From the NCBI GenBank assembly GCA_001600415.1, contig BCJX01000001.1, positions 346,365-410,364 on the forward strand: 64,000 nucleotides of DNA, in the 5' to 3' direction. Below, one piece after another: positions 18,719 through 64,000 of this stretch (its first letter is position 1; every line of letters starts with the position of its first letter). The notes below the pieces were generated by a model that had not been told where the DNA came from, made no database searches, and saw only the letters and a list, made by a program, of their open reading frames with translations. The translations under genes and the position numbers were made by a program. Origin of the DNA: Pascua guehoae. Lineage: Eukaryota > Basidiomycota > Tremellomycetes > Trichosporonales > Trichosporonaceae.

Positions 18719-20374
18719 CTAACCGCCGCGCTTACCGCGCCCGAAGACTGCTCCGAGAGTCTTGACGCCGCGGGCAAGGTGGTTGCGCTTGACGTTCTCG
18801 TGGCGGTAGGTGGACTTAGCAGGAGGGACCAAGTCGTTGGGCGCGCCGTGGGTGGTGATGAAGTCCACTGGCGCTGTGGGGGAAGGGGAAGGCGCGGTGG
18901 CAATGAGCGAGGGCGAGGCCGTGGTGGGGATGGTGGATGGTGTGAAAGAAGAGCCACCACAGGAGCCCGGAGACGTGAGGGGGGGAGCGATGCCGACGAG
19001 GGGGACCGAGAGGAGTTGAGATGGCATAGTCGAGGGCGAGGGCGAGGGGGCAATGGCCGTGTGGGCAGTGGCCTGCAGGTGAGACGACGCGCCCGCCGAA
19101 GAGAAAGCAATCTCGCCAGACTGTGCGGGCGAGCCCGATGTGCCTTGGGAGGCGGCGGTGGTTGACGGCTGGGCGACGGGGCAAGGGCTGGCGATGTGCT
19201 CGGTGGAACGAAAACAGGCAAGTTGCCATTCTCCTGCGGGGACGGGCGGCAGAAGCGGAGGCGGAGGCGAGACGACGCGAGCTGGCGGTGTAGCCGGGGC
19301 GACGGGTGTGACGGCAACAAGTGGACAGAGGGTGACATTGGGGGGCGAGGCTGGGCACGTAGAGTGGTCAAGGCGAGGGTGCAGTGTGGGCAGCGTAAAG
19401 TCGGGCGTCTTGACCTGGTGGAGGAGGTCGAGGAGAGCAGCCACGCGCGCACGAGCCTGGGCAACAGACAGACGATGATGCTGGCTCGTTGCGCACAGGT
19501 CGCAAATAAGTGCACGGACCATGCGCCCAAACTCTGTACCCCAAATCGGATGCTTAAACCACCGAGAGCGATTAACGCCCAGGCTTGCGACGAGGTCGGC
19601 CTCGTGTCCATACTCGTTGTTGAGGTCCACGCCATCGACGAGGAATTTAAGAAGAATGCCGAGCGACCACATATCCGCCTTGTAGCCGTGTGCCTTGCCA
19701 TGGAGAACCTCCGGGCACGTGTATCCCTGGGTGCCCCAGCCCCGGTGCTGGCCATGGCACTGGCAGTCACCGGCGAGCGCCGCGAACCCCCAATCCGCCA
19801 GGACAAAACGAGAGCCATCCTCCGACATGAGAACATTGTCCGGCTTGATGTCGTGATGGACGACAGAGTTCATCATGGCCCAACTGAGAACCACCAGAAG
19901 TTGGTCAAGCGCAACCAGTGGTTTCTCGAAACCAGCGTCCCAGGTAACCTCACTCAGACCTCCACCCTCGAAGTACTCGAGAGCAACCAAGTAGAACCCA
20001 TTTGCCTCACAGGCCCAGTATACGACGGGGATACCCCCGTGGCCCGCCAGCCGTTCAAATGCGACCATTTCCGCCTCATAGCTGGCGGTGGTCTCGCGGT
20101 TGATGGCCGACACTTTCAGAGCGGCAAGCTGTCCGTTTGCAAGCAGAATCTTGAAGACGGTACCGAAGGTACCAGCACCGAGTCGCTTGATGACCTTGAA
20201 GGTGGGGACCTCGAGTCCCCAGTACTTGCGCGAGTCGCCTCCCTTGTCGGCGACAATGTCGAGAGCCTCCTTGTGTCGACCCTCTTCACACTTCTGCTGG
20301 AACTTCTTGTCGACCTTGTCCGTCTTGAAAAGGCGGCATACGGCCGACGTAGCGATGTTCCACAGAGAGCGCAT
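18719..20374 (-). CDS. Divergent non-RD/DWG protein kinase, K1 (single exon, intact)
   Basis: 551 residues from the ATG at 20374. A short N-terminal helix region (FQQKCEEGRHKEALDIVADK) precedes the YWG signature at 51-53. The kinase fold shows a Gly loop GAGTFG (66-71), the beta-3 Lys in AALKVSA (87), catalytic-loop VVHHDIKPDN with HHD at 173-175, DWG at 194-196, CPE in place of APE (220-222) and ADMWSLG (233). Residues from ~323 are a Pro/Ser/Thr/Ala-rich tail, ending in the basic segment HLARGVKTLGAVFGRGKRGG. Lys, both Asp and Asn are kept, so catalysis is possible. The HRD arginine is His, making it a non-RD kinase. Substrate and role are unknown. Upstream are a CAA/CAG leader and the 70-bp element shared with K3, K8 and K9. 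Confidence 0.85.
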   Translation of the reverse strand: MRSLWNIATSAVCRLFKTDKVDKKFQQKCEEGRHKEALDIVADKGGDSRKYWGLEVPTFKVIKRLGAGTFGTVFKILLANGQLAALKVSAINRETTASYEAEMVAFERLAGHGGIPVVYWACEANGFYLVALEYFEGGGLSEVTWDAGFEKPLVALDQLLVVLSWAMMNSVVHHDIKPDNVLMSEDGSRFVLADWGFAALAGDCQCHGQHRGWGTQGYTCPEVLHGKAHGYKADMWSLGILLKFLVDGVDLNNEYGHEADLVASLGVNRSRWFKHPIWGTEFGRMVRALICDLCATSQHHRLSVAQARARVAALLDLLHQVKTPDFTLPTLHPRLDHSTCPASPPNVTLCPLVAVTPVAPATPPARVVSPPPPLLPPVPAGEWQLACFRSTEHIASPCPVAQPSTTAASQGTSGSPAQSGEIAFSSAGASSHLQATAHTAIAPSPSPSTMPSQLLSVPLVGIAPPLTSPGSCGGSSFTPSTIPTTASPSLIATAPSPSPTAPVDFITTHGAPNDLVPPAKSTYRHENVKRNHLARGVKTLGAVFGRGKRGG

Positions 20375-20450
20375 GTTGTTGTTGCTGTTGCTGTTGTTGT
20401 TGCTGCTGCGGTTGCTGCGGTTGTTGTTGCTGCTGTTACTGTCGTCGTGG
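20375..20450 (-). promoter_or_regulatory. CAA/CAG-rich 5' leader of K1
   Basis: On the gene strand this is repeated CAA and CAG triplets ending directly at the ATG (CAACAACATG). The same arrangement precedes K3, K8 and K9. It probably forms an unstructured leader. Confidence 0.6.
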
Positions 20451-20572
20451 TCGACGCGGATTCTTGCAGCGGTGTTGATGGTGAGTATGATGGTAACAAC
20501 GACGTGGATGAGGGAGGGGGGAGGGGGGGCTGCACGCTACGGTGGGATGGGGGGCTCTCGGACTATGCAACA

Positions 20573-20643
20573 CTCTCATTGGTTGGCAACTGGACTGCAT
20601 CGCATTGTCACATAACCCTGTACTAACGTGGAAAGAGGTAAAC
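20573..20643 (-). promoter_or_regulatory. Shared kinase upstream element (K1 copy)
   Basis: Plus-strand words CTCATTGGTTGGCAACTGGA, CTGCATCGCATTGTCACATA and CCCTGTACTAACGTGG recur almost unchanged before K3 (24656-24725) and recognisably before K8 and K9. It lies 199-269 bp upstream of the K1 ATG, so it is core promoter or early leader. Confidence 0.65.
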
Positions 20644-20864
20644 CAGCCACCTGCCAGATGGTCAACGGGTGAGCCGCCTGGGGGTGAGATGTGGAGGTTG
20701 GGAGTGGAGGGCGGGCACAGGGGAGGAGCCAGGCGAGTTGTCCAAGGTGGCGTTTTCGTTTACTCTTAATTTGTTGTAAGAACTAGAGAATAGAATAACA
20801 TGACAAACTAAATACGGCCCTCGCCCCTTAAGAACGTCGCGGCGGCGTCGCCGCCGCGTGGCTA

Positions 20865-21175
20865 CAGGTGTGACCGCAAAGTATTGGGACTGCCACCTTG
20901 AGCTCGGGCGTACCCAGGCAGGGTCTCGTACAGGAAATGCCATCTCCGACCCTTGTCTCGAGGCTGTACTGTACTGTACAGTAGCTGGGGGATTCACGCA
21001 CCCGTGTGACGGAAATATTCACGAATCTTTGGGAAAAAAATACACACGCGGCCCTCGGTACCCTAAGGCACAGCTTCCTACTGGCACCTTTAGATTAATA
21101 TACAGAGTATCCATGCTCAACGTCGCCTGCGCCCGAGCTCAAGGTGGCAGTCTCAATACTTTCCGGCCGCACCTG
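20865..21175 (+). mobile_element. Tc1/mariner-type MITE (copy C, best preserved)
   Basis: A 311-bp element with ~46-bp terminal inverted repeats that differ at about four positions. The left end begins CAGGTGTGACCGCAAAGTAT and runs to CTTGAGCTCGGGCG; the right end is CGCCCGAGCTCAAGGTGGCA to CCGCACCTG. TA flanks both ends (20863-20864, 21176-21177). There is no coding capacity. It sits directly at the broken 3' end of kinase relic K2. Confidence 0.85.
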
Positions 21176-21189
21176 TACAAGGCTGTCTC

Positions 21190-22417
21190 TATTTCAAGGG
21201 TGGTGGGGCCGGGCGAGGGGGAGATGATGGAGGGGAGGGGCGAGGGGGTGGAGGTGGAGATGGTGAGGGGATCGGAGGAGGGGGGAAGAGGACGGGGGGG
21301 GAGAGTCGACGGTTCTTGGTCGATGGGGGAAAGGTGGGCGACGTGGGAGGGCGGAGCTGGGGGGTGAGAGGGAGAAGAAGAGGTCGAGCTGTGGGTGTCA
21401 GTGAGCGTGTCAAAGAATGAACCAAGGTCGAGATCCAGATCGAGATCGAGATCCGGTAGAGACGCGAGATGGGGCGGGTACACATCGAGGGCGTCGAGGG
21501 GCACGGGTGTGGGCGCCAGGTGGAGGTGGGCCCGGAGCACCTGGACACGCCTGGAAGCTCGGGCGATCCTCTGGAAGGCGCGCACACATATCAACGACAA
21601 GAAGATAAACTTCGTGGCCAAAATCAGTCTTCCAAATCCAATGGGTAAACCAGTCATCCAAGTCGACGCCAAGGGACGCCACCTGATACTGGTCATACCC
21701 AAAGGCCACCTCGCAGAGGTCAATGCGGTCAACCAGGTACTTGGGGACCATACCAATCGACCACACGTCCATCGGGTGGCCGTGGTCTTTCCTCTCCCAG
21801 TCCAGCGCCTCGAGCGCCATGCAGCCAAGGGTGCCAAAGCAGTGACTACCGCAAGTGCAGTCAGACAGTCGTCACCACAGCCTCAGTCTCCGAGAACAAA
21901 CCGCATGACCTCCGAGTCCATAAACACATTCGCGGGCTTGATGTTCATGGTGGACAATGCCCATCATCTCAGCCCACGTCAGAACCATGAGAAGCTGGGC
22001 CACGACCATCAGAGGACGCTCAAAGCCCACGTCCCAGCTCACGTCCTCGAGGTCGCTACCCGCAAAGAATTCCATAGCCAAGAACAGAAAGCCGTTACCT
22101 TGGGCTGCCCAAAACAGTTTCGGAACACCATCGCAGCCAGCCATGTCCTCCTCGAGCATCTTCTCCTCCGCCATTTAGGACGCGCGATTGCCCTCGTCAT
22201 CAATCGCGACCTTGACGACGGCCTCATCACCGCCGTCGAGCTGGACCTTGAACACGGTCCCACACGCCCCCGCCCCAAGCTTGCCCAGAACCTTAACGTG
22301 GGGCGATGTGCCCCAGTACTGCCCCGAGTCGCCACCGTGCTGGGCGACGACATGGAGTGCCTTCAGGAGGCCATCGGTCTCAGACACGGTGGCAAACTTG
22401 TGCGCAGCCTCCTGCAC
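21190..22417 (-). pseudogene. Kinase relic K2
   Basis: The family order is clear but broken. GGDSGQYWG, then the Gly loop GAGACG and EAVVKVAIDD (beta-3 Lys) are intact. A TAA (22175-22177) falls where K1 has Tyr in the C-helix region. In the catalytic loop one extra base near 21,945-21,950 turns the expected HHDIKPAN into HHEHQAREC. The Trp codon of DWG is TGA (21883-21885). The C-lobe continues (HPMDVWSIGMVPKYLVDRID, WFTHWIWKTDFGHE), then a Pro/Ser-rich tail fades into the end of MITE copy C. No ATG is seen at the start and the family leader is missing. Kinase activity is excluded by these lesions. Confidence 0.85.
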
Positions 22418-22588: not shown

Positions 22589-24469
22589 TCAAAGTCCTCG
22601 AGCGACGTTCATTCTCCGCCGGCTTCGGGCTTGAGGGCGCAGCGCAGGGCTTTGAGCCCGCGCGCAAACGAGTTGCCCGACTTGCCCGACTTGACCATGC
22701 TGGCGGGGAGCGGGACTGGAGCCAAGTCGGCCGGAAGGACGAGGCTGGCGTGCGACCCCAAACGCTGGTTCGGGGAGGGCGAGGGCGTGGGCGAGGGCGA
22801 GGCGGTTGTGGCGACCGACGCCGATGCCATGGTTGGCCCCGTGGACGCGCCGAACGAGACGGTAAGCGAGCGCTGCGCGCCCGAGGTTGCCGATGGTACC
22901 GCCAGCGACGACGAGGGCACCAGGATGCTCTGCGGAGCGACGAGACGGCTGGTGGCGGGTGGCGACGCTGCCGGCGAGAGACCGTTGCCCGACAGCGCAG
23001 CAACCTCGTTGCGCGCCTTCGGGAGGGCGCGCGGGACACCCTCCATAGCAGCGGCGTGCTCCTTGCGGCTGCGAGGCGGGGCGGGGCGAGACGCAGCCGG
23101 AATAGCCGACTTGGACGAGGCCGTTGGTGCCGGCGACTGGCGCTGAAAGACGGCCGGTTGGAGTCGGGGCGGGCGAAGCCACGCGTGGGCCAAGGTACGG
23201 CGCCAGATTGAGGCCGGTGGCGGCGAGCGATGGGAAGGCAGCGCTCGGAAGAACGGCCGCGGTCGACGAGATCGGTGGCGAGTTGACAATGCCCGAGCGC
23301 GGCGCGGTGTTGACAACGGGGGCGGCGGCAATGGCGGTGGCGGGGGCCGCGGCAATAGCGGTGACGGGGGCGGCGGTAATGGCGGTGACGGGCGGCGGCG
23401 GAGCAGGACGAGCAGGCGGAGACCACGGTGGCTGGCGCGCAAGGGGCGTGAGCTGGACGGGCTTGATCTTGAGCTTGCCCAAGGGTACCGGTGGGGGCGC
23501 CTCGCCCAGGCGGCTCTGCAGGTCGGCGACGATAGCGAGCGCCTCTTGCACGGTGAGTCGGTCCTTTGGCCGCTTCGCGCACATCCGAAGGATCAGGGCC
23601 CTCACGTCACGCCCATAAGCGGTGGTCCAGATCCAGTGCTCGAACAGGTCGTCGCGGTCGATGCCACGGTCGGCGACTTTGTTCTGGTCCCGGTTGCCGT
23701 AGCGCACAAACAGGTCGACTCGATCGATCATGTACTTGAAGACGAGTCCGAGCGAGAACATGTCGATCGCGTGTCCGTGTGCGTCGCCGCAAAGAATCTC
23801 GGGCACCATGTTGCCGGGTGTGCCCATCATCCTGTGGTTGCCGCGGCAGGCGCACTCGTCGGTGGGAGTCCCAAATCCCCAGTCGGCCAGGACAAAGCGG
23901 CTACCGTCAGCACTCATCAGAACATTCGCAGGCTTAATGTCTTGGTGAACGACAGAAGCCTCCACAGCCGAACCAAGCGCAGTCAGGAGCTGACGAAGGG
24001 CCTCGAGGGGGCGCTCAAACGAGACGTCCCACTTGACGCCCTCCATGTCGCCACCGTCAATGTACTCAAATGCCATAATCAAAAAGTTGCCGTTCTGGCG
24101 CGCCCAGTAGAGCTCCGGAACGCCAGCCTTGCCCGACAGCTTACGGTAAGCCTTCTTCTCACGCGCAAAGGTGCGCAAGGAAGTCTGGTCCGCAATCTGA
24201 ATCTTGACCGCCGCCCGCTTGCCATCGTTGAGCTGGGCAAGCATGACGGTGCCGAACGCGCCCTGTCCAAGCTTCTTTACCATGTTAAACTGGGGCACCC
24301 AGGTACCCCAGTACTTCTGCGAGTCTCCCCCCTTCTTTGCAATCATGGCCACTGCCTTCTTCAGCTGGCCCATCTTTACCGCCTTCTGAAACTTCTCCTG
24401 TTCGACCGCCGGGTCGGCCTTAAAAAGGCTGGCGATGGCCGAGGTCGCGCGGGTGACGAACGAGAACAT
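22589..24469 (-). CDS. Divergent non-RD/DWG protein kinase, K3 (tail frameshift)
   Basis: 626 residues as read from the ATG at 24469. N-terminal FQKAVKMGQLKKAVAMIAKK precedes YWG (53-55). Then come the Gly loop GQGAFG, beta-3 Lys 89 (RAAVKIQIAD), VVHQDIKPAN with HQD at 175-177, DWG at 196-198 and DMFSLGLVFKYM. The tail (from ~345) is Ala/Pro-rich with near-perfect VTAIAAAPA repeats. Near 23,150-23,170 the family-like reading moves to another frame. That frame ends at 22609 with SFARGLKALRCALKPEAGGE, resembling the K1 C terminus; the frame open from the ATG instead ends at 22589 with an Arg/Gly-rich stretch. Either one base was lost recently, a small intron restores the frame, or the assembly is wrong. 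K3 differs from its relatives in HQD rather than HHD. Confidence 0.75.
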   Translation of the reverse strand: MFSFVTRATSAIASLFKADPAVEQEKFQKAVKMGQLKKAVAMIAKKGGDSQKYWGTWVPQFNMVKKLGQGAFGTVMLAQLNDGKRAAVKIQIADQTSLRTFAREKKAYRKLSGKAGVPELYWARQNGNFLIMAFEYIDGGDMEGVKWDVSFERPLEALRQLLTALGSAVEASVVHQDIKPANVLMSADGSRFVLADWGFGTPTDECACRGNHRMMGTPGNMVPEILCGDAHGHAIDMFSLGLVFKYMIDRVDLFVRYGNRDQNKVADRGIDRDDLFEHWIWTTAYGRDVRALILRMCAKRPKDRLTVQEALAIVADLQSRLGEAPPPVPLGKLKIKPVQLTPLARQPPWSPPARPAPPPPVTAITAAPVTAIAAAPATAIAAAPVVNTAPRSGIVNSPPISSTAAVLPSAAFPSLAATGLNLAPYLGPRVASPAPTPTGRLSAPVAGTNGLVQVGYSGCVSPRPASQPQGARRCYGGCPARPPEGAQRGCCAVGQRSLAGSVATRHQPSRRSAEHPGALVVAGGTIGNLGRAALAYRLVRRVHGANHGIGVGRHNRLALAHALALPEPAFGVARQPRPSGRLGSSPAPRQHGQVGQVGQLVCARAQSPALRPQARSRRRMNVARGL

Positions 24470-24560: not shown

Positions 24561-24655
24561 CGGCGGTATGGTGGTGAGTACAGTGGCAACATCGACGTGG
24601 AAGGGGACGGGGGTGCATGCTACGGTGGGGTGGCTGGCTCTGGCCTCAATGCAAG

Positions 24656-30287: not shown

Positions 30288-31440
30288 TCAGAATCCATGC
30301 AGCGACGACGCGTATCCCACACTTGGTCGAAAGCCGAACGTGTTTGAGGCACTAGCGAGATTTGCTCGCGCGGCCGGGGGGTTGGGGATGGTGATGGTGG
30401 ACGTGGCACCACCGTTCGTGATCGAATCGCCAGAGAGAGTGTCAATGGCGCTCGAGGGTTGGGTAATTTGATGCGCTGGTTTGGACGCGCGGGGAAGGTT
30501 GGTGGTGGGAGCGATGGGCGTCATAGCCTCGGACATGCACGTCATAGCCGTCACGCCGGGAGGTGGCACGCTGCGCGGCGGTGTCGAACCAGATTCTGGC
30601 ATGGGGACAGCTGGCAGTGCCGAAAGGACAAACCAGCATGGAGCTGGCGACCTTGGGAGCCACAGGTCGAAGGGGCGCGACGTCGATCGAGGCGGAGGGT
30701 GCAGGGGTGCGGGCGAGAATATCCAAGCTCGAGGACGCTGGGCAAGTTTTCTCCCCAGCTGGGGCCTCCAAAGAACTGCTCTGCCACCTTGGCAATGCCT
30801 GCGTCGGCACGAACCGTCTCCGTACCAGTGGTGGGCACGTGAGTGGACGCGGTGGTGTGGCCGTCCGCTGGCGCGAGGTTGGAAGGGGCGGTGGTGGTGT
30901 TCAGCGAGGTCCAGATAGACCAGTAATCGTCCATAATGTCGCCAGTGTCGTCCTCGATGGGCTCATCCCGTGGCTGAGACTGGACGCAGATCAACTCGTA
31001 CAGGCTCCAGTAATTCTCCAGAATATCACCAGAGGTCGGTTCCTCCGCCTCGCATGCAGTTGTTGCAGACGTGGCGCTCTCATCACGCGCGTCGGCGGTA
31101 CCAGTATGCGACGCGGGCCAGTTGGCGCACTTCTGGCCACCCGCGCCAGGCCCAGAAACAGTGTTGGCAACAGGAGGCGATGAGGGGCATGGGGGGAGGC
31201 TGCCAGAGCGAGTAACCGGCGTGTTAGCCGTTGCGGCAGATGTGGACGGCGCGACAGGTACGTCGCCGACAGCGGAGTGGGCGGTTGCCGGGCGGGAGGA
31301 GTCACTCATGACCGACCAAGTAAAGCTTGGTGTCGAGGCGCTGGACACGGACACGGATGAGTCGTACTCCGAGTCGGCCGAGGGCGAGAGGTTGACCCAC
31401 ACGTCATACGGGCGCAGAGGAGGAGAAGCGCTCATGGGAC
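30288..31440 (-). pseudogene. Displaced tail of kinase K4 (frameshifted)
   Basis: Coding-like tail sequence continues beyond the K4 stop in a second frame: ASPPLRPYDVWVNLSPSADS, then two copies of the YW module, SGDILENYWSLYEL and TGDIMDDYWSIWTSLN. It then moves into a third frame (SLDILARTPAPSASIDVAPL, then PNPPAARANLASASNTFGF) and stops at 30288. The family's basic C terminus is not found. Conserved tail motifs after the K4 stop imply a longer ancestral protein. Confidence 0.6.
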
Positions 31441-32666
31441 GAGGACGAGCGAGACGCGGAAGAGAGCGAGCGGGTGTGCGAGAACGCGCATTCCGACGAA
31501 GAGCACCAGCATGTCGACGACGAGCTCGGGCGCTCCGAAGAGGAGCGAGAGGGCACGGAGGAGCGGGAGTGATCCGAGACCGAGCGAGAGGGTGCGAAGC
31601 GCGAAGCGGACGGGGACTGCGCCGAGGAGACGGGGCGAGCGGAGGAAGACGACGAGCCGGCAGAGTTGTCGCACGTCGAGGGCGTCGAGTCCAGGGAGTC
31701 AACACGGGACATTGGCCGCTCAACGAAAGGGACGGGAGGGGGTGCCTCGTGCAGGCGCTGCTCGAGCTGCAGGATCCGCTCCCACACCTGCTCCACGTCC
31801 GGACGCGCCTCGAGGATGGCGTCGCACATCTCGACGATGAGCTGCTTGACGTCCATCGCAAACTTGCTCCGCCAAATGTAATGCTCAAAAAAGTCCTCCC
31901 GGTTGACTCCCGTGAGCGCCACATGGTTTGCGCCCCTGGCTCCGCGGTACCTAACCCACAAGTCCTCGCGGTCAATGAGGAACTTGAGGATGATCCCCAA
32001 GCCGAAGACATCCCTCCCCTCGTCGTGCGGCTCGGCGCAGAGCGACTCTGGCGCCAGGTAGCCGTCCGTGCCGCCGCCGCCGCAGCCCTCGCGGCATGCC
32101 TCACTGCTGACGCAAGACGACTGACCCCAATCCCCGACCACAACGCTGCCATCCTCCCTGATAAAGAGGTTGCCAGGTTTCAGGTCGTGGTGGACGAGGC
32201 CTTCGGCGTGCGCTGCTGGCACTCCCGCCAAGATGTCCTTGAATGCGTGAAAGGCGCACGCAAACCCAACCTCCCAGGTGATCCCCTCGACGTCGCCGAG
32301 GGCACAAAACTCGAGCTCGACACACAGGTGCGTCCGAGTCGCCTTCCTGTCCGACATGTAGAGCACGGCGTGGCGTCCCCTGAGCTTGCAGAGCGCGTTA
32401 ACCTCGCGGTTGAACGCGTCCACGGACACCTCGCCGTCGCGCGCGCTGACCTTGAGAACGGCCACTTTGTCCTGGGCTTTCTTCACCAGGAAAGCGCTTC
32501 CCGATGCCCCGCTGCCAAGACGGCGGACGACCGTGCACTGTGGGGCGTCGGTGCCCCAGTACACCCGCGACTCGCGACCCTGGTACTCCGCGACCTTCTC
32601 GACGGTGCTCCCCTTGTCCGTCTCCCAGGCGTCACCGAAAATCTTGGCCACCTCCTGGTCAGTCAT
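31404..32666 (-). CDS. Divergent non-RD/DWG protein kinase, K4 (tail truncated by frameshift)
   Basis: About 420 residues from the ATG at 32666 (MTDQEVAKIFGDAW). I prefer this start because the 17 in-frame residues before it are leftover C-lobe of the upstream relic K5. YWG is at 36-38, Gly loop GSGASG, beta-3 Lys 72 (VAVLKVSARD), VHHDLKPGN with HHD at 159-161 and DWG at 179-181. A Cys-rich activation segment (CVSSEACREGC) leads to APESL and DVFGLGIILKFLID. The tail is Ser-rich (SRSVSDHSRSSVPSRSSSE) and ends early at 31404, while motif-bearing tail sequence continues in other frames. No CAA leader or shared upstream element lies directly upstream; the K5 relic abuts it. Confidence 0.7.
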   Translation of the reverse strand: MTDQEVAKIFGDAWETDKGSTVEKVAEYQGRESRVYWGTDAPQCTVVRRLGSGASGSAFLVKKAQDKVAVLKVSARDGEVSVDAFNREVNALCKLRGRHAVLYMSDRKATRTHLCVELEFCALGDVEGITWEVGFACAFHAFKDILAGVPAAHAEGLVHHDLKPGNLFIREDGSVVVGDWGQSSCVSSEACREGCGGGGTDGYLAPESLCAEPHDEGRDVFGLGIILKFLIDREDLWVRYRGARGANHVALTGVNREDFFEHYIWRSKFAMDVKQLIVEMCDAILEARPDVEQVWERILQLEQRLHEAPPPVPFVERPMSRVDSLDSTPSTCDNSAGSSSSSARPVSSAQSPSASRFAPSRSVSDHSRSSVPSRSSSERPSSSSTCWCSSSECAFSHTRSLSSASRSSSSHERFSSSAPV

Positions 32667-36585: not shown

Positions 36586-36677
36586 TATTTTGGAACGTAC
36601 GGCGGGGAAAGGCCCCATCCCCCTTTTTCACTTTACAGCTTCGGCTTGCGCTGCGCGAGCTCTATAAAGACGTAAAG

Positions 36678-37849: not shown

Positions 37850-38579
37850 TGCGTAACTGGTGAGCGCACAGCCGCCATCATGTCGGCAGCCTGGCAGAGG
37901 CTCGCAACGGGCTCGTGTTGGATGGACGGCGAGAGACGAAGAATGAATCCAGCTTGGCCGAAACTTGGAGTGAGGGGGTACTCGCGCGGTTGTTGGCGAC
38001 CAAGAGAGTCCTCAGCGACATTGAACTGCCCCAAGGACGGAGTTGTCAAAAACTCTGGCCCAAAAGCGGGTTCGGGGACAACAAGCTCGCCCCCAGTATC
38101 ATGAGCGATTGACCCTCTTGGCGTGGTGGTTGCCGACGATGCAGGGCGGACGCGGGAACCGGGACAGGGGTTTGGACCGGGCTAGGCGAAGCTCCGAGCT
38201 CGGGTGGTGTGCTTGGCGCGGTGTGCTCGGCAGCACTCAACGTGGCGTCAGGACGCACAGTGTCGGTGGCGGACTGAGCCGACTGCACGGTCGAGAGCGG
38301 AGTAATTGGCGCGCAAGTCGTGGCGCTCGAGGTACTTGTCTGTGCGACGCTGACAGTCGCACCGGCATGTTCACCTTGGGTCTCGTCCTCTGTGCTCTGG
38401 TCGGCGTCCGTCTCGGTGGCGACGGTCTCCTCACCTGGTATGGATGCTGATGTCGTTGCTTGTGGATAGGATCTTGTGTTGATGGTGTTCGTTATATTGA
38501 TCGCGCTGTTGGCGCTAATGGTGCTCTTGTTGTTGGTGGCGTTGGTGGTGTTGCCCGGACTGCTGGTGTCACCTGCCAT
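37850..38579 (-). pseudogene. Kinase-family remnant K7: leader joined to tail, no kinase domain
   Basis: An open frame from the ATG at 38579 starts in translated leader-type repeat (NTTNATNNKSTISANSAINI). It passes directly into tail sequence similar to K8: ETDADQSTEDETQG against ETDADDDANGHSQG, then TVSVAQTSTSSATTCAPITP. After a frame change, SFGQAGFILRLSPSIQHEPV (37,910-37,980) matches K8 SFGQAGFILRLSAPHHEPIP. The whole kinase domain is missing, so a deletion joined the 5' leader to the tail. Confidence 0.65.
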
Positions 38580-38932: not shown

Positions 38933-40579
38933 CTACGCCTTAATGACACGACGCCAAACCCCCCGGACCTTGTTGACGACCCGCGTCAAGCGACGGGTTT
39001 TGGGGAGTGCGTTGGCGGCATCGCTGACCTTGCCAGGTTGGTCGTCGTGGAGAGGCATGGTGGACTCGGCGACAGATGGTTGTTCCGCATACTTCTCGGC
39101 AGAATCGGGTGTCGGTGGCGGGCTCGAGCCCTCAGTGCGCACAGTAGTCATTGTGTCCGCCACTTGCCCCCAGCTAGGGATGGGCTCGTGGTGGGGCGCG
39201 GAGAGGCGAAGGATGAATCCAGCTTGCCCAAAACTTTGAATGGCCGCGCTCGAGCTAGCGACCGGATCGATGACGTCGGCTGCAGAGACGACAGAGTGCA
39301 CGGGGGTGTGTGGCTCAACAGGCGAAGAAGTGGCGGTGCTCGAGGTGGCGACAGCTGTGACACTAACGGTGGGGGCGATGGGTTCACCCTGGCTGTGGCC
39401 GTTGGCGTCGTCGTCGGCATCCGTCTCGGCATTGGCGTCCTCGTCCTCAGAGCCGTCATTGCTCTCACTCATGCTAACACCGTCCCCCTGGATCGCGCTC
39501 GCAGAGCCGTCCACTTGGGGGCCTCCGATGCTTGCGCTCGCGCTGCCCTGGATCGCGCTCTCAGAGCCGTCCACTTGGGCCTCCACAGACTCCGGCGGCG
39601 AGTCGGGCAAGGGCTCGAGGGCCGGGAAGACAATCCGCTCCAAGTCGCGCTTCACGTACGGCACCTCGGCCGGCGCGAGGTGGAGGTCGGCGATGAGCTC
39701 GTCGACCTCACCGATGAGGGCCCGAGCCGTGGGCCGGTTGCGAGCGACGGGGTCGACCATGCGCGAAAAGAGCCGGCGCGCGCGCTTGCCATACGGGGTC
39801 TGCCACGCGGGGTGGCAGAAGAAGTCGTCGCGGTCGAGCCCGCTCCACGCGACGTAGTGGGCGACGCGCCCGCGGCCATACCTCACCGCCGCGTCCTCGC
39901 GATCGACCATTGCCTTAAAGGCATGGCCGATCGCGAAGACGTCGCAGGCCGGGCCATGCTCCTTCTCGTCGAGCACCTCGGGCGGAATGTACCCGGGCGT
40001 GCCGCGGCGCCCGTGCCCGCGGCGGCAAACGTGCGCGTCCTCGGCAAGGCCCCAGTCGGCGATGACCACCGACCCGTCGGCGCGGCGCAGGAGGTTGTCG
40101 GCTTTGATGTCGTGATGCACGACCCCCTTTTCGTGCGCCGCCGCCAGCCCCGGCAGCACATCACGCATGGCGCGGAGGGCGTTGCCGAAACCCACCGGCC
40201 AGTCCGCGCTCGCAACGTCACCGACACACAGCTCGAGACCCAGGACGAGGAAGCGCAGCGTCCGCGTCCACATCCACGACTGAATGATGCCGGGCGTGCC
40301 GGCGAGCCTGCGGATCGTGTCGCGCTCCATCATAAAGGCCGCGCGAGTGCCCCGCCTGGTGGTGTCCGCGCACACCTTCATCGCCTTCTGCTCCCCCGAG
40401 GGGAGCTCGACGCGGTATACGCAACCAAAGCCGCCGCGTCCCAGGCGCTGCCGGACCGTGCACGCGCGCACCCCCATTCCCCAGTACACCGAGCCCTGGC
40501 GGTCCAGGTCAGCGGCGGGGATGTCGAGGAGGCCGTACCGGCGGCGGTCGGCGGCTGTGCTGTCCTCTTCGTCGTCGTC

Positions 40580-40610
<31 letters not shown>

Positions 40611-43489: not shown

Positions 43490-46010
43490 CTACAAGAGAC
43501 GGCGGAGGACGCCCCGCACCTTCTTGAGGGTGCGCCCGAAGCGGCCACGGTTACGAGCTTCCGCGCCTGGGTTGCCCATGGCGGCGCGCGGTACTGGGGC
43601 TGGGGCGGGGGTTGGGGGCGGCGTTGGGCCCGAGACCTCGGCAACGAGAGTGGGCGCGGGCGTCGCGACTGCCGGCGGGTTGGCGGCGGGCGGAGGCAGC
43701 GCGGGCGCAATGACGTCTCCAGTGGCTTGGGCAGTGGGGACGGGCGCACTCTGGTGCTGCGGGTCGAGGGCGGCGGCGATCCCCCAGTAGTCCGCGAGAA
43801 TGTCGCCAACGTTTTGGGGGACGACGGGCGGCGGAACGTATGCGACCGGTACGACCTTAGTTGCGGTGGCCTGGGGCGCTGTTGCGTCTGCCGTTGCCGT
43901 CGTCGCGAAACTGCTCAGTACGCCCAAGAGAGACGCATACCCATCGGGCAAGGCATGCTCAATCACACCCTCGACGATGTCGGTTGGCGGCACAGGCATG
44001 GCGACAGGCGGCGGCGCTTGGACGGCTGGCTCGAACGACGGCGGGAGCGCGATCTCGGCGGGCTCGGGCGACGGCGGGAGCGCGATGGCGGCCGGCTCGG
44101 GCGACGGCGGCAACTCGATCTCGGCTGGCTCGGGCGACGGCGGCAGCGCGATCTCGGCGGGCTCCGGCGACGGCGGCAAAGCGATCTCCGCGGGCTCGGG
44201 CGACGGCGGGAGGGCGATGGCGGCGGGCGAGGGCGGCGAGCGGGCCACGGGAGGCGGCTGCAGAGCCGGAGGAGGCGTCGGTCCGCGAGGCGGGGTTGCG
44301 GGGCAAGGCGGGGGCGCTGGCGAGGCGGTTGCCGACGACGCGTGGCGGTGGGCGAGGCTGGCGGGGGGCGAGACGGGGCGAGAGGCGGCGGCGACGGACG
44401 AGGTGGGGGAGGGGGGCGGTTGGCGGCGAGGGAGGTTCATGCCCCCGAGGCTCTGGTGCTCGGTCCAGATTGCCTACTTTGTCAGAATATGGTCCAAGAC
44501 GGTCGAGAACATCAGGTCAATTGGTAGTCTGTACTCACCTCGAGGGCCTGAAGCGCCCCCTCCGCCGTGGGGCGCTCCTGGGGCTGCGAGGCGCACAACG
44601 ACTCGACCAGCGAGCGCGCTATACTGTCAGCATTGCACCGTCATCGAGTAGCTAACAATCATGCAGCTACCGTGTACTCACTTGGGCGTCCCGCAGGGGA
44701 TTCCCAGAACTCCCCTGCGAAGAACCCCACATCCTTGCGGATGTCCCACCCCCCCATCACCAGCTGACCATTCTCGTCGTCGTAGGCGGTCCTCATGTCC
44801 CACCCGTCGAGGAGCCACTTGGCGACCATCCCGATGCTCCAAACGTCAGCAGGCTTACCGTGGGCCTTCAGGTCCCAGACCTCGGGCGCAATAAAACCGG
44901 CAGTCCCGAAGAAGATCCCGCCGGCCGCACACTCCGACTCCGTCATCGCCGCCCCCCAGTCCCCGAGGACGGCGTCTCCCGAGGCGCGCACGAAAATGTT
45001 GTCGTGCTTAATGTCGTGGTGCACGATACCACGACGGTGCGCCTCCACCAAACCACCAAGCACGCCCCGCAGCAGCCTCACCGCCGAGGCGAACGACAGC
45101 GGCGCATCACGCTCCACCACGTTCCGGAGATTGCCCTGCTCGCAGTTCTCCAAGACCACAAACATGTACTTGTGGTTGGTGGTCGCGTCTTCCACCATCC
45201 TCACGATACCGTCACAGCCCTCGAGGGCCTTGAGCGCCTCCTTCTCCCTCTCCCACTCGTCCCGGTCCTCTCGCACAGACACCCTGTATTCCATTAGCAC
45301 CCTGTGAGTCTACTGCAGCCGACTACTTACTTCACAACATACTCCTGCCCCCCCTTGTCGACCGCGAGGAATGCCGAACCCTTGGAACCGGCACCCAGGG
45401 AACGCACGACACTGTAAGCTGGCGCACGGTCGCCCCAGTAGAAGCTGCCGGGCTTGCCGAGGTGCCCCGGGTCGATCGACAGGGCCACGCGCGGCTGGCG
45501 GCACCGTGCACGCGTAAGGTCCTTCTTCACCTTCTTCCAGAAGGCATCGTCTTTCACGACCGGCGTCTCGGTGGCGCCGTCGGTTCCCGTGGCCACGTTA
45601 CCTGGGGAGTTAGCACCCTTGCTCTCGCTCTCCCCTGCAGAGGGCCCCTTGTTGGTGGCACACTCGGCCGGGGTCGCTCCTTCCATCTCTCCCGCCTCCA
45701 TCTTTGCCGTCGTGCCTGCGGAGTTAGCGACGTCTTTGCACTGCCCAGCGCTACCAATCTTACCTTTACCCTTGGAGGCAGTCACCCCCATCTCAAGCCC
45801 ATTGCTTGAGCTGGTCTTGCCTGTAGAGTTAGCGCCTCCCTCGCAAGCCCAAGTCCCTCCACTCTGAACCTCGCCCTCTCCTCCCGACGACACGCCATTG
45901 GTGGCGCAAACGGTAGCCAAGCCGTTGGTGCTTGTGCGCGCGAGCTGGCGAGACCCGGCGTTGTTGTTGTTGCGGTCCGAAGATCCGAGTTGAAAAGCGT
46001 TGATGCTCAT
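43490..46010 (-). CDS. Divergent non-RD/DWG protein kinase, K9 (four exons, intact)
   Basis: Exons 46010-45331, 45283-44682, 44618-44539 and 44473-43490 join in phase to 781 residues. The N-terminal ~190 residues are Gly/Ser/Thr/Asn-rich. Then PGSFYWGDRAPAY, Gly loop GAGSKG and EYVVK, with the beta-3 Lys (227) split by intron 1. Exon 2 carries IVHHDIKHDN (HHD 315-317), DWG 335-337, APEVW and DVWSIGMVAKWLLDG. Exon 3 is exactly 80 nt and encodes RSLVESLCASQPQERPTAEG plus ALQALE. Exon 4 is the tail, with LPPSPEPAEIA repeats, the module NVGDILADYWGI and the basic end RFGRTLKKVRGVLRRLL. The exon-3 acceptor is TAG at 44619-44621, chosen because the nearby CAG would give a stop. A partial copy of its 3' end lies downstream. 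Confidence 0.82.
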
Positions 46011-48905: not shown

Positions 48906-51530
48906 TTACTTGCGCCTCATGCGCCGGAAGACGTTGCCGACCCGATCGGCGGCGCGCTCGAGAACATTGCGGCGCTTTGGGAGGGGTGGTGGCGGCGGTG
49001 ATGGATCAATGGGGACCCACTCCGTGATGATGCCCTCGAGGTTTGTCTCCACCGAAGTGATGTGGTCATTGCTAGACTTGAGCTCTGCTCTAACCGTGCC
49101 GAGCTGCTTGTCCTTGTCCTCGAGCTCCGAGGTTGCGCGCGCCTTGGTGTTGGCCACGGCATCGGTGCGCTCGGTGACCAGAGCGGCCAGAGTGCACAGC
49201 GTGTCGATCGGCCTTGGGAGGGCGCTCCATGATTGCCTCGCGCGTCCCTGCTTGCCTGCCAACGTCCACAACTTCACTACCAGCAGAACTCTCGCCAGCA
49301 TGCGAGAGGGTGGGGGCGAGTGCGAGGGCCGCGTGGATAGAAATCACAGAGGATTCCAGACTGCCACCGCAATTGCTCTCGTCGTCGACGGGGGGTAGCG
49401 GGCCGTCCGCGGCGCTGGGCTTGACAACGTTGCCCGAGATTGACGAGGAGGAGCTCGCGCATCTGGGGATCGAAGACTCTGCCTGGGTTGGAGAGGCCGG
49501 GCAGAATGTCTGCCCTGCTGGCGTTGGCCGGGGTGATGCGGGTGCTGGGGTGAGGTTGTCACCAGTGTTGTCATGCACATCTTGTACCGAGGCTCCGACA
49601 GATTGAGCAGGTGCAGCGGGGGATTCCGGCTCAGTTGGCGCAGTGGTGTCGCTCACGCCTTCCCGAATGTCAGTAGCCTCAGTGGTGGGGCTGTCGTGCC
49701 GCGGACCAAGAGGTAGGACGGGCGTGCGGAGCTCGGCAGGCCCAGGGCTCGCACCGACAGTGAGCGTGGGCGCGACGGGGCCCGCCAGCAATTCGTGCTC
49801 CTCGTCGAACGCATCGATCGGGGTGATCGGCGCCGACGGTCCCGGGAGAGAATTGGACGGGTGAGCCGCGTCGTTGTCGGTGGTGGGGGCCGGCGAAGCA
49901 CCGAAGGTGAGCGCGGCGGGTGGAGTGGCAGCAGGAGCAGGCTCAACGGGTGCGGCAGGAGCGTCAAGTGGAGCTAGGCCAGGAGCAACGGGGGCGTCGG
50001 CTACGGGAACCGCAGCCGTCCTTGCCTCACGGTGGGAGAGAATTCCAGCGAGGTAATCGAACTGGGCCCGGATTTCCTGTGTTGTTAGAACATTCCAAAG
50101 TACTGTGGAGATTCGAGCACGAGGTTGCGGAGGACAATGCGCAATGTGCGATCAAAGGTCACGTGCAAGTGTGGATTAAAGGGGAGAAGTGATTCTGTAC
50201 TGATGCGCGTCACACCTCGTTCCACACATAAGGTGTGCCCAATTGACCAAACTCCATGTTCCTCGACAACTACTGAAAAACGTCACTGAGCACTCACACT
50301 GAGCCGCCTGGCCGCCTCCAAAGCCGTGGGACGCCGCGAGGGGTTGTACGCGCACATGGACATGATGAGGTCCATGACTGGGCTTGTCAGTATTTGGTAA
50401 CATGCTTCTAACTTCTTCACTCACATTGAACACCCGGTGGTGTCTTCCAGATGGCACCCACAAAAAAGTCCTCGGCGTGTTCGACGTCCCAGCCCGTCTT
50501 CACCTTGGCGCCGATCCGGTCCCGGAAGACGCCACAGCGGTCGCTGTCGTCGAGAAGTGACCTAAACACCATGCCGATGCTATACATGTCGGCTCGTGGG
50601 CCGTGCGGCTTCTCCAACCACACCTCCGGGGCGATGAAACCGGGCGTGCCCGTCGAAAACCCTCCCTCGGCGCAGTCGTCCATGTCGGACGCAACCCCCC
50701 AATCGCCAACCGCCACCTCCCCGTTTCCACGCAAAAAGAGATTCTCTGGCTTGAGATCGTGATGAATGAGGCCACGGCTGTGAGCCTCACCCATCGTCGC
50801 CAGAATCTCTCCCATGGCCTTTACGGCCGCTCCCAGGTTAAAGTCGGCCGCTTTGGCGCGGCCCTCCAGAGTTCCACCCGGGCACAGCTCTTGAATGAGA
50901 AACGCATACGGCGCCCCCTCTGCGACTTCTGGTGCCGTGACCATTCCCGCCACGCCCGGGGAGCCGCGCATGTGGACGAGGTTGCGGCACTCGTCTTCCC
51001 ACTCGACCATGCCGTCGTCCGCCGTGGCAAATACTCTGTTTCCATTAGCATGGCACGTGACACTAACGCAATACTCACTCGCTTTTGTGCTCGCCGCTCG
51101 CGGCTCGCGGCTCTTGTGGCTCTCGCCGCTCGTGCGGCATCGTTGCGTCAGCACCTACTCGTTTGCTCGTGGTCAATCTTGTCATTGTTTTCTCCATCCT
51201 CCATCCTCCACTATCTCCCATTCTCATCTCCACTCTTTAATCCTGGTTCGGTCGGTCGGTCCGACCTCGCGACTACACTCGCCATCGGTCCTCACACCGG
51301 TACACACTCTTTTACGACTTTCATTTCAGAGCGCAGTGCTCTCCAGTCTCGGGCATGATAACCCTGTAGACTGCGCCAAAGCTCCCACTGCCCAGACGCT
51401 CCACCACATTGCACTCGGGCGCCCCCTCGCGCCAGTACCCCCGGGTGGTCCGGCCCAGTAGTCTGTGAGGCACGACGAGGGCGGATTTCGTGTCGGAAGC
51501 ACGTTTTCTGCGCCAACGCCTACCTCCGGT
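48906..51530 (-). pseudogene. Divergent non-RD/DWG protein kinase, K10 (disrupted)
   Basis: The four-exon plan of K9 and K11 is recognisable. Exon 1 ends GYWREGAPECNVVERLGS, then GSFGAVYRV and CALK at 51,326. Exon 2 (51035-50425) has LIHHDLKPEN, GDWG and APEVW. Exon 3 (50377-50298) is 80 nt (DLIMSMCAYNPSRRPTALEA). Exon 4 (50076-48906) is the tail. Three defects are seen. About 245 bp is inserted between the beta-3 Lys codon and the exon-1 donor, putting TGA right after the Lys. The tail shifts frame near 49,230; only the second frame reaches the family end (LERAADRVGNVFRRMRRK), after a coiled-coil-like stretch ELEDKDKQLGTVRAELKSSN. No clear ATG was found. Kinase residues are otherwise kept, so loss may be recent or rescued by splicing. 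Confidence 0.7.
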
Positions 51531-56036: not shown

Positions 56037-58809
56037 TTAGCGGCGCTGGAAGCGCTTGATCGCCTTACCGACCTTGCCGAAGAAGCGCTTCACCGGGTTG
56101 CGCTTCTCCTTGGCGGGCGCAAGGGGCGCTTCCGCCTCCACGGGGCTCAAGCTTGCGATGGACGGCAAGCTCGAGTGCGACGATCCAGCGAGCACGTACT
56201 TGCTCGCGGTGTCGCTCACGTCGTCTTCACCGCCCTGGTTCGGGTTGGCGAGAGCGGTGTTGGCCGGGCCCTGGACGGGGTTGACGGGGCCGGGGCCGGC
56301 GTTGGCGACGTTGCCGTCCTGTGCTTCCATGAACAGCACATAGACGGCGGCGACCTCTTCCTCCGGGGCGAGAACGAGGTCGGCAAGAGGAGCAGGGACG
56401 GGTGCGGCGAAAGGCACGGGGTCGACGGTGGGCATCTCGACCACGGGCTCGCGGGCACCGGCGAAGAGGGCAATGGCCTCACGGATGTCCCTGCGCCCAT
56501 CGCTGATGACTGGTGCGACGGGGCTTTGCACGACGGCGGTGGCGGTGGTAGGCGTGGCGCCGGTACCGGTCGTGTTGCTCGGGCCTGCGGGGGGCGCGGA
56601 GCTGGTCACCTCCACCTGCGCTTGGGTAGCGGAGGTGTCGGTGGTGTCGTCGTCGGGACCCGAGGTTGACGTAGCGGGTGCGTCCGACGAAGATGGCGTT
56701 CCGGTGCCGCCGACAGCTTGCTCGTCGTGGGCCGAGCTGTTGTCGGACTGGGGCGACACTGGCGCAATTGACGACGTGCTGGACGAGGCGGTGGGTTCCG
56801 GCTCGACAGCGTCGTTCTGTGCCTCTGCCGTGAGGTTGACGTGCGGCGGGGCGGTTTGGACCTCGGTGGTGGCGTCCGAGGTTGCGCCCTGAGTTGGGTC
56901 GAGGGGCGCGAGCTGCTCCTGGCCGTCGTTGTTGAGGGCGTCGACAAGGGCAATCGACGAAGACGGGCCCGGGTCAGCTGGGGCAGCGGCAGGCGAGACA
57001 GGGCCTGCGGTCGTCGCGGGGGCCGGGAGAGTCGAGGGTCCGGCCATGGCAGGAGCGTCTGCGGGCATCGGCGAGGAGGGCTGGTCATCTTCGGCAAAGT
57101 ACGTTGCCTCAATCCGCTGATGTGTCAGACTAGAGTCGCTGACGAGGATAATCATGTTGCGCGAGACACTCACCTCGAGAAGACGGATTGCCTCCACCGC
57201 CGTGATGCGCGCGGCCGGGTTGGGCAGGCACATGCGCACCACGACACCCGCCACTAGAATTTGTCAGTACAGTATCTTTACAGTATCACAAGGCTCTTTC
57301 CCTTATACTCACGGTCGGGGCCAAGTCCCTCACACGTCCACGGATAACCGCGGAAGCATTTTGGGTCGGTACGGATGTCCCATCCCCGCACCATCATCCC
57401 CATGCAGTCGTCCTCGTACAGGACGTAGACGTCCCGGTCGCACAGAATGCGCATGAACAACATGCCCGCGCCGAACATGTCCGCCGCGATACCATGCGGC
57501 ACCTGGAGGATCACCTCGGTGGGCATGAAGCCTTGTGTACCCGGGTGGCTCACAGGCTCCTCCTGGCACTCGGCGATCGTGTGGGACCTGCCCCAATCCC
57601 CCACAACCACCTCACCGTTCCCGCGCAAGAACAGATTGTCGGGCTTGAGGTCGTGATGGACAAGCCCATGGCGGTGAGCTTGGTCCAGGCCAACGAGAAT
57701 CTGCTTCATAATGCCCACGCGGGCCTCCAGGTCGAGTTCCGGGTTCTTCTCCAAAAAGTCGCAGAGGTCGCCATTGGTGCAGTCCTCCATGACGATGAAG
57801 CGGTAAAAGGGGTTTTGCTCCCCCTCCTCGGCTTCGACCTTTTGAACAATGCCAGGGCAGCCCTGGAGCATGCCCATCGCGCGGAGCTCGAGTTCCCACT
57901 CGACCTCGTCCTCGTCCTCGTACGGTGCCAGCGAGACCCTGATGACATTAGCAATGTACTGACCGTTTGCCACAATACTTACTTAAGAACAAAGCGCTCG
58001 CCGGTAACCGGGTCCTCGACACGGTAAGCGGCGCCCGCGGCTCCACTTGCCAGGTACTCGACGACGTTGAGGTGAGGCGAGCGAGGTCCCCAGTAGAAGT
58101 CGGCGCGACGACCGAAAATGTCGTCGTCGTCGTCCTCGAGGTTGAGGAGAGCCGCCGGGTCGCGCGCGCACTTCCTACGAAGGGCGAAGCGCTTCTGCGT
58201 CCACCAGCTCTCGTCGCGGGCCTCGCCCTGGGTGTTGTCGTTCGGGGCGGGTCCATCCTCGGCGCGGGCCCTACCTTTGCCCTTGTCAGTGCTGGCGGCG
58301 GGTGGCGAGCCAGCGTCGTTGTCAGTAATGCCCCCGGCGTAGTCGTTGGGGGCGGGCTCCTCGGCCGGGGCCTTACCCTTGCCCTTGTTGAGGCGAGGAG
58401 CCGCCGAATCGCCGGAGCCATCGCGCTGCTCGGCGCGAGAGGGCCCGACACTGTTGTCGTCGCGCTGGGGGCTGTCTGTCAGCGCAACATCACCGTTCTC
58501 GCCGGCAGAGGTCTCGGCGGTTACTGTAGTTTGCGTCCCGGACGGGCCGGGAACGCGGTCCTTAATGTTCTGGTCGACAACGGCCTCGTTGTCGTACCCG
58601 GCAACGTTGTTGTCGCTCGGGGAGGCCGCCGTCAGAGCCGTCCACCGACCGTTCACCTGCACCCACCCGTAAGGGAAGGGAGGGCTCGGGCCGGCGACAG
58701 CTTCTTGCCCGCCAGAAGTCTCGGGCAAACCTTGGTTGGGCGCGAGGGCGATGCCGTTCGTGCCGGAGTTGTTGTAGGTCGAGGACCCGGAGCGCTTGTG
58801 CTGAGTCAT
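56037..58809 (-). CDS. Divergent non-RD/DWG protein kinase, K11 (four exons, intact)
   Basis: Exons 58809-57983, 57938-57313, 57253-57174 and 57116-56037 join in phase to 870 residues. The N-terminal ~230 residues are disordered (KGKGKAPAEEPAPNDYAG repeats). Then ADFYWGPRSPHLN, an atypical Gly loop ASGAAGAAY and the beta-3 Lys (276) split by intron 1. Exon 2 has LVHHDLKPDN (HHD 370-372), DWG 390-392 and PTEVI where others have APE. Exon 3 is again 80 nt (VVVRMCLPNPAARITAVEAI). Exon 4 is a 360-residue Pro/Ala/Thr tail with RRDIREAIALFAGARE and VYVLFMEAQDGN, ending RNPVKRFFGKVGKAIKRFQRR minus its first residue. The first Gly of the Gly loop is Ala-Ser, so ATP binding may be altered. Mini-exon array 1 follows the gene. 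Confidence 0.82.
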
Positions 58810-59167
58810 TTTGTTTTTAAAACAATGATGAGAGTATGTTAGAGAGCAAAAGAAGATGTCGACGTGGAAGGCATTTGTAGTGGTGGGTCGGACGGTGGCT
58901 GGTCGCATACTGGGGCCAGGGTAGACTGCTGAACCTACTGACAGACTCCTTGCCTGCTCCAATCATATAATCTCATTTGCCTCCAGCAGCACGCCATGTG
59001 GCCCACAGCCAGGCGCCGCCACACCGTCAAGCAGCCATGGCAGAGCCAGACAGGACGATAGGCCGGCAGCGGAACATAATGCATACTGGGAGGCCTTCTT
59101 GACGTTGGACGGTGAGTGTGGCCTTGGCTGTACTGCAGTAGGCATGTCCTGCCCCGTGGACACCCGG
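58810..59167. other. 5' flank of K11
   Basis: The start region lacks a CAA leader; the bases before ATG are A/T-rich on the plus strand (TTTTGTTTTTAAAACAATGA). No copy of the 70-bp shared element was found here. Confidence 0.4.
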
Positions 59168-61610: not shown

Positions 61611-61619
61611 CCATTGTGA

Positions 61620-63291: not shown

Positions 63292-63364
63292 AACATGATC
63301 GAGTCACTCACTCGTAACACCCTCGTCCTTTTTTTGGTGCCCTCGCGGGCTTTTCTTGTTTTCT

Positions 63365-63367
<3 letters not shown>

Positions 63368-63419
<52 letters not shown>
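63368..63419 (+). repeat. Run of 52 T
   Basis: A pure homopolymer between array 2 and K12. On the K12 strand it is poly-A ~300 nt after the stop codon. Confidence 0.95.
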
Positions 63420-63420
<1 letters not shown>

Positions 63421-63717
63421 TTCCCTTCCTGCTCTAGGACGAGCTGCAAGACGTCCTCAAGCCTGGGTGCCCAAGCCAAGCGAGAGTAGTCGAGCAGCGC
63501 CAAAGGTGGGTGGTCGGCCTGGTGAAAGCCGAGCACAGCCACAGAGCAGGAATCCTACGCATCCGCGGCCGGGGTTGAAGGTAAATGGCCGAATGGTCGG
63601 ATACGCAAGACGGTACGGGGTAAATGGCGACATGTCTACCGAGGTTCAAGGTGGGGTAGACGATGCCGCGGTACCGGGGAGGAGGGGGTGTGGACGGGAG
63701 AGGCGCGTCGCAAAAGT

Positions 63718-64000
63718 CTAACCGCGCTTGAAGCCGCGGAAGACCTTGCGGACGCGGTCCACTGCACCGCGGAAGCCCGTGCGCTTGCCCTTGCGCACGG
63801 CGTCGGCGGCCTCCGGGTGCGTGTTGCCGTCCACCAAGACCCATGACTGGACAATGTTCGTCGCAGCCAGGGCAATGAGGTCGGCAGGTGACAGTGCCTC
63901 GGCCTGGGAGGTTGTCGTTGAGAGTGCCACCAGACTCTCGTTCCCAGTGCCAGCGTCAGCCACGACGGTCGAGACGCTGGCGTTGCCGAAATGCTCCCAA
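63718..64000 (-). CDS. Kinase-family member K12, C-terminal tail only
   Basis: The frame is open from the window edge to a TAG at 63718-63720. It reads SLVALSTTTSQAEALSPADL, then IALAATNIVQSWVLVDGN and the end RGAVDRVRKVFRGFKRG. The basic amphipathic C terminus and the Ala/Thr-rich run before it match K8-K11, so I place it in the kinase family. The kinase domain is beyond the window. Position relative to array 2 mirrors K11 and array 1, which suggests a four-exon gene. Confidence 0.6.
   Translation of the reverse strand, partial: WEHFGNASVSTVVADAGTGNESLVALSTTTSQAEALSPADLIALAATNIVQSWVLVDGNTHPEAADAVRKGKRTGFRGAVDRVRKVFRGFKRG

Follow-up and report, generated by a model that had tools for sequence, protein, structure and literature searches.

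Kinase genes and relics at the locus

The window analysed here is a stretch of 64,000 nucleotides from Pascua guehoae (Trichosporonales), corresponding to bases 346365-410364 of contig BCJX01000001.1 (C1, 3.97 Mb) of assembly GCA_001600415.1, and its subject is a tandem array of protein-kinase genes within a genome of 33.6 Mb in 28 contigs. Between 18.7 and 64 kb of the window, searches with a family profile, tblastn and a profile of the C-terminal tail identified 12 minus-strand pieces belonging to a single kinase family (A, A2, B, C, C2, D2, D, E2, E, F, G and, at the window edge, the 3' end of H). They comprise four genes with uninterrupted kinase domains, two genes split by introns, one damaged gene, one gene 3' end, two pseudogenes and two tail fragments (Table 1). 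A preliminary description of the window had counted about twelve same-strand members or relics in 45 kb. This count holds within the window, but the array passes its edge: the kinase part of H, followed by I, J, K, L, and M, extends it to about C1:451.1 kb (window-equivalent 104.7 kb), again entirely on the minus strand. The whole array has 13 members (A to M) in ~86 kb, plus relics. Gene models rest on homology and splice sites, without RNA, and their starts are uncertain.

Scanning the whole genome with PF00069 gave 148 matches, including a minus-strand run from C1:365818 to 450766. When B (36 matches) and L (48 matches) were used as queries against the genome, all 13 members were recovered inside the array and none outside it in the 33.6 Mb. 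The best outside matches reached 42.4 bits with B and 47.2 bits with L, against 47.7 bits (a narrow margin) and 77.7 bits, respectively, for the weakest array member. As PF00069 gives these two outside matches 218 and 83 bits, we consider them ordinary kinases and, with every member lying in the array, the detected family is therefore confined to ~86 kb. That 13 of 13 members share a strand has a naive probability of 2.4e-4. This value presumes independence, which tandem copies do not have; more suitable is the correlation between physical order and tree distance (rho 0.43), which was as high in 5 of 5,000 permutations. Chance or mirror open reading frames (ORFs) were ruled out as the source of the signal, all profile matches with E < 0.5 inside the array being on the minus strand; the plus-strand ORFs opposite the kinases are probably mirror frames of the kind that GC-rich DNA produces. 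The members form a tandem array at a single locus.

Table 1. Members and relics of the kinase family in the window (window positions; all on contig C1)
Feature	Position	Strand	Description
Gene A	18719..20374	-	Uninterrupted kinase ORF, 551 aa; HHDIKPDN / ADWG; PF00069 104 bits
A tail	18722..18811	-	C-terminal basic amphipathic stretch; model helix 523-546, low confidence
A2	21457..22414	-	Pseudogene nearest B and A; stops, frame changes
Gene B	22589..24469	-	Kinase domain open; HQD, ADWG; PF00069 110 bits
Gene C	31404..32666	-	Uninterrupted kinase domain; HHD, GDWG; start ATG uncertain (another at 32699)
C2	32665..33283	-	Decayed partial copy of C; 57% aa, 77-85% DNA identity in blocks
D2	37861..37965	-	Fragment; matches only D tail residues 547-580 (63% aa)
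Gene D	38933..40873	-	Uninterrupted kinase ORF, 646 aa; HHD, ADWG; C-terminal basic helix 38936-39016
E2	42864..43205	-	Duplicated 3' end of E, 81-83% DNA identity; tail motif kept at 42864-42938
Gene E	43490..46010	-	Four exons modelled; introns 45330-45284, 44681-44619, 44538-44474; C-terminal basic helix 43493-43573
Gene F	48906..51479	-	N-lobe 51324-51437; kinase exon 50429-51019 (HHD, GDWG); tail helix 48909-48980
Gene G	56037..58908	-	Introns 57982-57939, 57312-57254; HHD, GDWG; tail helix 56040-56123
Gene H 3' end	63718..64000	-	Tail helix 63721-63807; kinase beyond window at C1:411609-412487

Start codons are ambiguous in E, which has five upstream ATGs including the one taken at 46010, and in G, where 58809 or 58908 may serve. 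Of the other window ORFs, 10 of 10 scanned (seven inside the array, three to its left) gave no Pfam family at E 0.01, and neither did three of four further non-kinase ORFs (26495-27412, 3983-5197, and 43493-44440, the last being the tail frame of E). The fourth is a TBC gene beside the array, at window 960-3833.

Kinase domain, introns and terminal helix

All six window members scanned (A, B, C, D, F, and G) matched PF00069 with 83-110 bits against a cut-off of 31.7, and A-D match nearly its full length. The clear order of kinase motifs noticed in the preliminary description is seen in the members. HxDxKxxN and DxG are present in 13 of 13, the catalytic lysine in all 12 whose N-lobe was in the set (that of F was not joined), and an intact glycine loop in 11 of the latter; the alpha-C and APE glutamates are also retained. 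The retention of catalytic residues is well supported, and on this basis the kinases are predicted to be catalytically competent. The signature of the catalytic loop is unusual: HHD in nine of 13 members, HRD in two (H and M), HQD in B and HND in J, so that the HRD arginine is absent in 11 of 13. DWG replaces DFG in 12 members, M having DFG. Among 213 listed database kinases, one has HHD, one has DWG, and none has both.

In a phylogenetic tree, all 13 members fall on one side of a branch with 97/95 support, and all 18 ordinary kinases of the same genome and all nine database kinases fall on the other; the sampling covered 18 of 20 own kinase stretches fetched (L049 and L051 left out) and 9 of the 213 listed database hits, and some end branches are long. 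With class labels that we take from the motifs of the own-genome kinases by eye, the family groups with none of the sampled classes (AGC, CAMK, CMGC, STE, and CK1). The view that the family is highly divergent and outside the known classes is in this sense borne out for the classes sampled.

Two plus-strand kinases, C1:471808 and 478057, also fall on the family's side of the tree, weakly placed and with less than half of the columns filled. They belong to a group of three divergent plus-strand kinase pieces (C1:471808, 473875, and 478057) lying ~20 kb past the array, with HAD, HMD, and HKD. A lone kinase piece with HND in place of HRD (L051, C1:608551-609573) is found ~160 kb past the array.

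The AlphaFold2 model of A, built on a seven-sequence alignment, has a confident kinase fold at approximately residues 20-320, followed by a disordered linker (326-526). Its structure matches tie across CaMKII, DAPK, Aurora, MST3, PAK, and WEE1 (Foldseek, VIA-align), and profile-to-PDB scores are close across GCN2, CaMKII, StkP, PLK4, and ULK. The structure matches single out no one class. The family has a generic eukaryotic protein kinase (ePK) fold, outside the classes sampled, and shares fold and catalytic residues with the canonical ePKs (CAMK, AGC, STE, CMGC, CK1, Aurora, PLK, ULK, and GCN2). Members consist of a variable N-terminus, a short lead-in with a [YF]WG motif, the kinase domain, a linker of ~200 or more residues, and a basic amphipathic C-terminus of ~20 residues. 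In A this layout appears as a structured N-terminal extension, kinase, disordered linker and C-terminal basic helix (ORF, AlphaFold2 model, and tail profile).

The nearest known kind is FunK1, likewise fungal and lineage-expanded: PMC3203195 describes it as a kinase family with lineage-specific expansion by duplication. The array differs from it in several respects. The legend of figure 5 in that paper gives FunK1 a serine at active-site position 8, which in our reading is the position of the HxDxK lysine, and all 13 array members have lysine there. FunK1 shares 35% of the PF00069 length according to PMC3203195, whereas A-D match nearly all of it. When six members were scanned with PF17667 (Pkinase_fungal), only B was listed, at 17.6 bits, below the cut-off of 24.1. 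In the genome search with this model, only M (26.6 bits) and H (24.0, or 24.5 with neighbours) of the array narrowly exceeded the cut-off, whereas PF00069 gives each of them 104 bits. Judged by the active-site serine, the family lies outside FunK1, as the preliminary description had proposed. Expanded kinases outside named groups have also been described in one fungal lineage, Fusarium (PMC6001611); there, part of the kinases lie on lineage-specific chromosomes, the word "tandem" occurs 0 times in the text of that paper, and the likeness is one of description alone. Experiments on the function of lineage-expanded fungal kinases are called for in PMC3203195.

Comparison of the members revealed shared intron positions. 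Intron 1 is common to eight of the nine members E to M, and its AA/GTRAGT donor splits the codon of the catalytic lysine; in E and G, the N-lobe lies in an upstream exon joined through such an intron (AA/GTAAGT donor). F has the N-lobe piece yet yielded no acceptable candidate for intron 1. A second intron, within the C-lobe, could be modelled in seven of eight (H excepted), with gains of 2 to 24 bits. The models of E, H, and M include a third intron, 3' of the kinase domain, which in K and L was recognized by eye only, as a frame change with plausible splice sites; the models of G and I reach the tail without it. The kinase domains of A to D have no introns. Because these four form one clade (90/98, below the star threshold of the tree program), a single joint loss is simplest, and this sub-clade probably lost introns 1 and 2 together, once.

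Seven gene models end in a similar basic stretch, and these were used to construct the tail profile. Applied to the six-frame open stretches of 234 kb, the profile returned the seven inputs and five further places (E 2.3e-7 to 0.011), which are the ends of F, J, K, and L and the duplicated end of E; the next match had E = 1.3. Each of the 12 profile tails is read from the minus strand and is followed by a stop within 0-4 residues. In this way, 11 of 13 members have a tail by profile; the twelfth, that of B, which resembles the end of A, was chosen by eye after the frames had been read (stop ~22609). In a leave-one-out test over 7149 frames, nine of 12 tails came back among the first five ranks, their E values ranging from 1.2e-8 (I) to 0.4 (H); rank 1 mostly went to the duplicated E end. 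An own-genome search with the I tail matched I, L, and F only. The tails have a net charge of +2 to +10 over 22 residues. For all 12, the helical moment is higher than the mean of shuffled sequences, and in 10 of 12 fewer than 5% of shuffles are as high. A membrane-binding score, with a formula and threshold that we take to be the standard ones, is above threshold in all 12, driven mainly by charge. This terminal basic amphipathic stretch behind a long linker is a new observation.

Duplication and decay of the copies

Copies range from intact to relic, and tandem duplication is well supported. A2 and C2, with stops and frame changes, are plainly broken. The C2 relic runs directly into the start of C; this junction and the duplicated 3' end of E are the kind of traces that local unequal crossing-over would leave. 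In J, the catalytic-loop run is altered (EHND) and the tail contains frame changes, and F is probably damaged, its tail having a frame change in addition to the missing intron-1 candidate. The preliminary description of intact, damaged and headless copies side by side stands for the broken A2 and C2 and for the tail fragments, but E and G are split by introns and not headless, and part of the headless decay signal came from introns. The headless reading is ruled out for these two genes and kept in part for F.

We read the family as the product of birth-and-death duplication in tandem, in agreement with the preliminary description; the tandem duplicates, pseudogenes and tail fragments are what such evolution predicts. 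The ancestor would have carried several introns and spread by local unequal crossing-over. Spread driven by transposons was also considered and set aside: there are 55 reverse-transcriptase matches genome-wide and none on the array-bearing contig. In all nine kinase-domain pairs compared, dN was lower than dS, with eight of the nine dS estimates above 1.3 and saturated.

Proposed function and competing explanations

The best explanation, which we hold with middling confidence, is that of one tandem family of catalytically competent-looking, mostly non-RD kinases that are tethered to a membrane by their tail. The tethering is suggested by the chemistry of the helix. In this scheme, the C-terminal helix would hold the kinase on an acidic membrane and the linker would give it reach. 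Because most members are without the HRD arginine, the usual switch by activation-loop phosphorylation would not apply, and the kinases might be switched on through recruitment or release of the tail. The fast-changing N-terminus and linker may set the choice of partner, with kinase and tail staying fixed. Kinases of the GRK4/5/6 type have a C-terminal amphipathic membrane helix. The likeness of the array to them, by description alone, is the idea of a C-terminal basic amphipathic helix that holds a kinase at the membrane; as a difference, Pfam listed no RGS-homology domain in the six array members scanned.

Several observations weigh against a membrane-tethered, competent family. Gene G is without the first glycine of the glycine loop, gene C has no tail helix, and the tail of B is in another frame than its kinase. 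The leave-one-out test missed the tails of B, D, and G and recovered those of A (E 0.12) and H (behind non-family frames) weakly, and the pLDDT of the tail helix in the model of A is only 48-64. The argument on non-RD regulation is carried over from kinases in general. Moreover, a basic helix might just as well serve as a signal for the nucleus or for nucleic acids, for docking or for autoinhibition.

On the last point, it is possible, though we doubt it, that the tail is a calmodulin-binding, nuclear-localisation or autoinhibitory element and that the kinases are soluble sensors of stress or environment. A basic amphipathic helix after the kinase domain is typical of calmodulin-regulated kinases, and CaMKII is among the best PDB profile and fold matches; however, it is tied there with other classes. 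The classic calmodulin spacings (1-10, 1-14, 1-5-10, and 1-8-14) were found in only three of 12 tails (A, D, and M), no more than in shuffles, a result that bears on canonical binding only, and in the model the helix of A lies ~200 residues from the kinase instead of adjoining it. Rather unlikely, in our estimate, is that the kinases form an ordinary family of the Trichosporonales, of which relatives carry one-to-one orthologues, and look orphan only through their divergence. Such orthologues could have been missed by the word-limited protein search: B shares 11 exact 5-mers with A but 0-5 with the other 10 of the 11 modelled members, so that the word filter reaches A from B and hardly D, G, I, or K (0 shared), and at 30-40% identity most relatives would escape it. 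Yet the searched collection does hold Trichosporonales proteins. Among the RPB2 matches listed (120 of 7228), the highest identities were those of two metagenome proteins (93%), Cutaneotrichosporon oleaginosum (92%) and Cryptotrichosporon argae (91%), while two higher-bit rows (Puccinia and Marasmius) were at 78%. B, in contrast, gave 93 proteins at 22-33% identity. The named ones are mostly bacterial kinases, and horizontal transfer from bacteria was considered; identities of this level may be those of any orphan ePK. An eight-member profile scored 7997 candidates and gave 257 proteins, of which 120 were listed and 10 read; the matches listed were general kinases and no Trichosporonales name was among them, most rows being without organism name. 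As to a viral origin, a scan of viral contigs (viral_contigs) confirmed 135 of 272 stretches and retained 80 loci, with identities of 21-40%.

The tandem arrangement, the relics beside intact genes and the strong divergence would also suit a recognition, conflict or incompatibility locus, as the preliminary description had suggested, in which mismatched partners among diversified paralogues trigger rejection or death. By analogy only, the fungal cell-death protein RCD-1 is reported in PMC12881547 to have plasma-membrane affinity via positively charged amphipathic helices. We regard this explanation as improbable. The kinase domains look constrained by the dN and dS values above, though dS is mostly saturated, and birth-and-death evolution is common in families without a conflict role. 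In addition, a six-frame, exon-by-exon search of the genome for NACHT (PF05729) gave 0 matches at E 0.001 (NB-ARC and HET were not searched). Reviews describe yeast genomes as having no NLR genes (PMC10197012 and PMC12881547), so that the lack of a NACHT match does not set this yeast apart. Just as improbable is a dispensable locus of little function whose copies are for the most part pseudogenes in decay. The four relics, the damaged appearance of F and J, and the irregular tails of B and C point in that direction; against it, the kinase frame is open, any introns have splice sites (the third intron of K and L by eye only) and the tail lies at the stop in nine of the 13 (A, D, E, G, H, I, K, L, and M), and dN is below dS in the kinase-domain pairs.

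To return to the membrane-tethered family, an extension of it would be that the non-RD array forms a polymorphic locus for self/non-self recognition or for sensing parasites, with a fast-changing sensor part and a constant kinase and tail. Plant immune kinases likewise lack the HRD arginine. We consider this extension very improbable. A strain comparison would show whether the locus is polymorphic in the way of recognition loci. The array is a compact single-locus family with a shared, testable terminal helix and a distinctive catalytic signature, and all members found in the genome would be lost with a single ~86-kb deletion. No paper describing the array was found in the literature, as judged by title and abstract start. 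According to PMC12820176, whose main text contains the word "kinase" 0 times, Trichosporonales include saprotrophs and opportunistic pathogens and have haploid genomes of 17.22-33.70 Mb.

Other features were observed in and around the array. Two tRNA genes lie within it on the same strand (window 36677-37021), one for Arg-ACG and the other with an ambiguous anticodon, and a third, marginal tRNA match is at 29219-29344. Degenerate tandem repeats of ~107-137 nt occur between kinase genes at 54607-55396 and 62503-63317, one set carrying GGCCCGAGGGCCC. A block of 69 nt, 91% identical between its two copies, is found upstream of A (20565-20633) and of B (24649-24717) and is possibly a shared promoter piece. 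Elsewhere in the genome, the open frame of RPB2 (C6:1754656-1755753 and flank) runs on past the conserved GEMERD motif into an insertion (CLHGDTPVTL...) that we presume to be intein-like.

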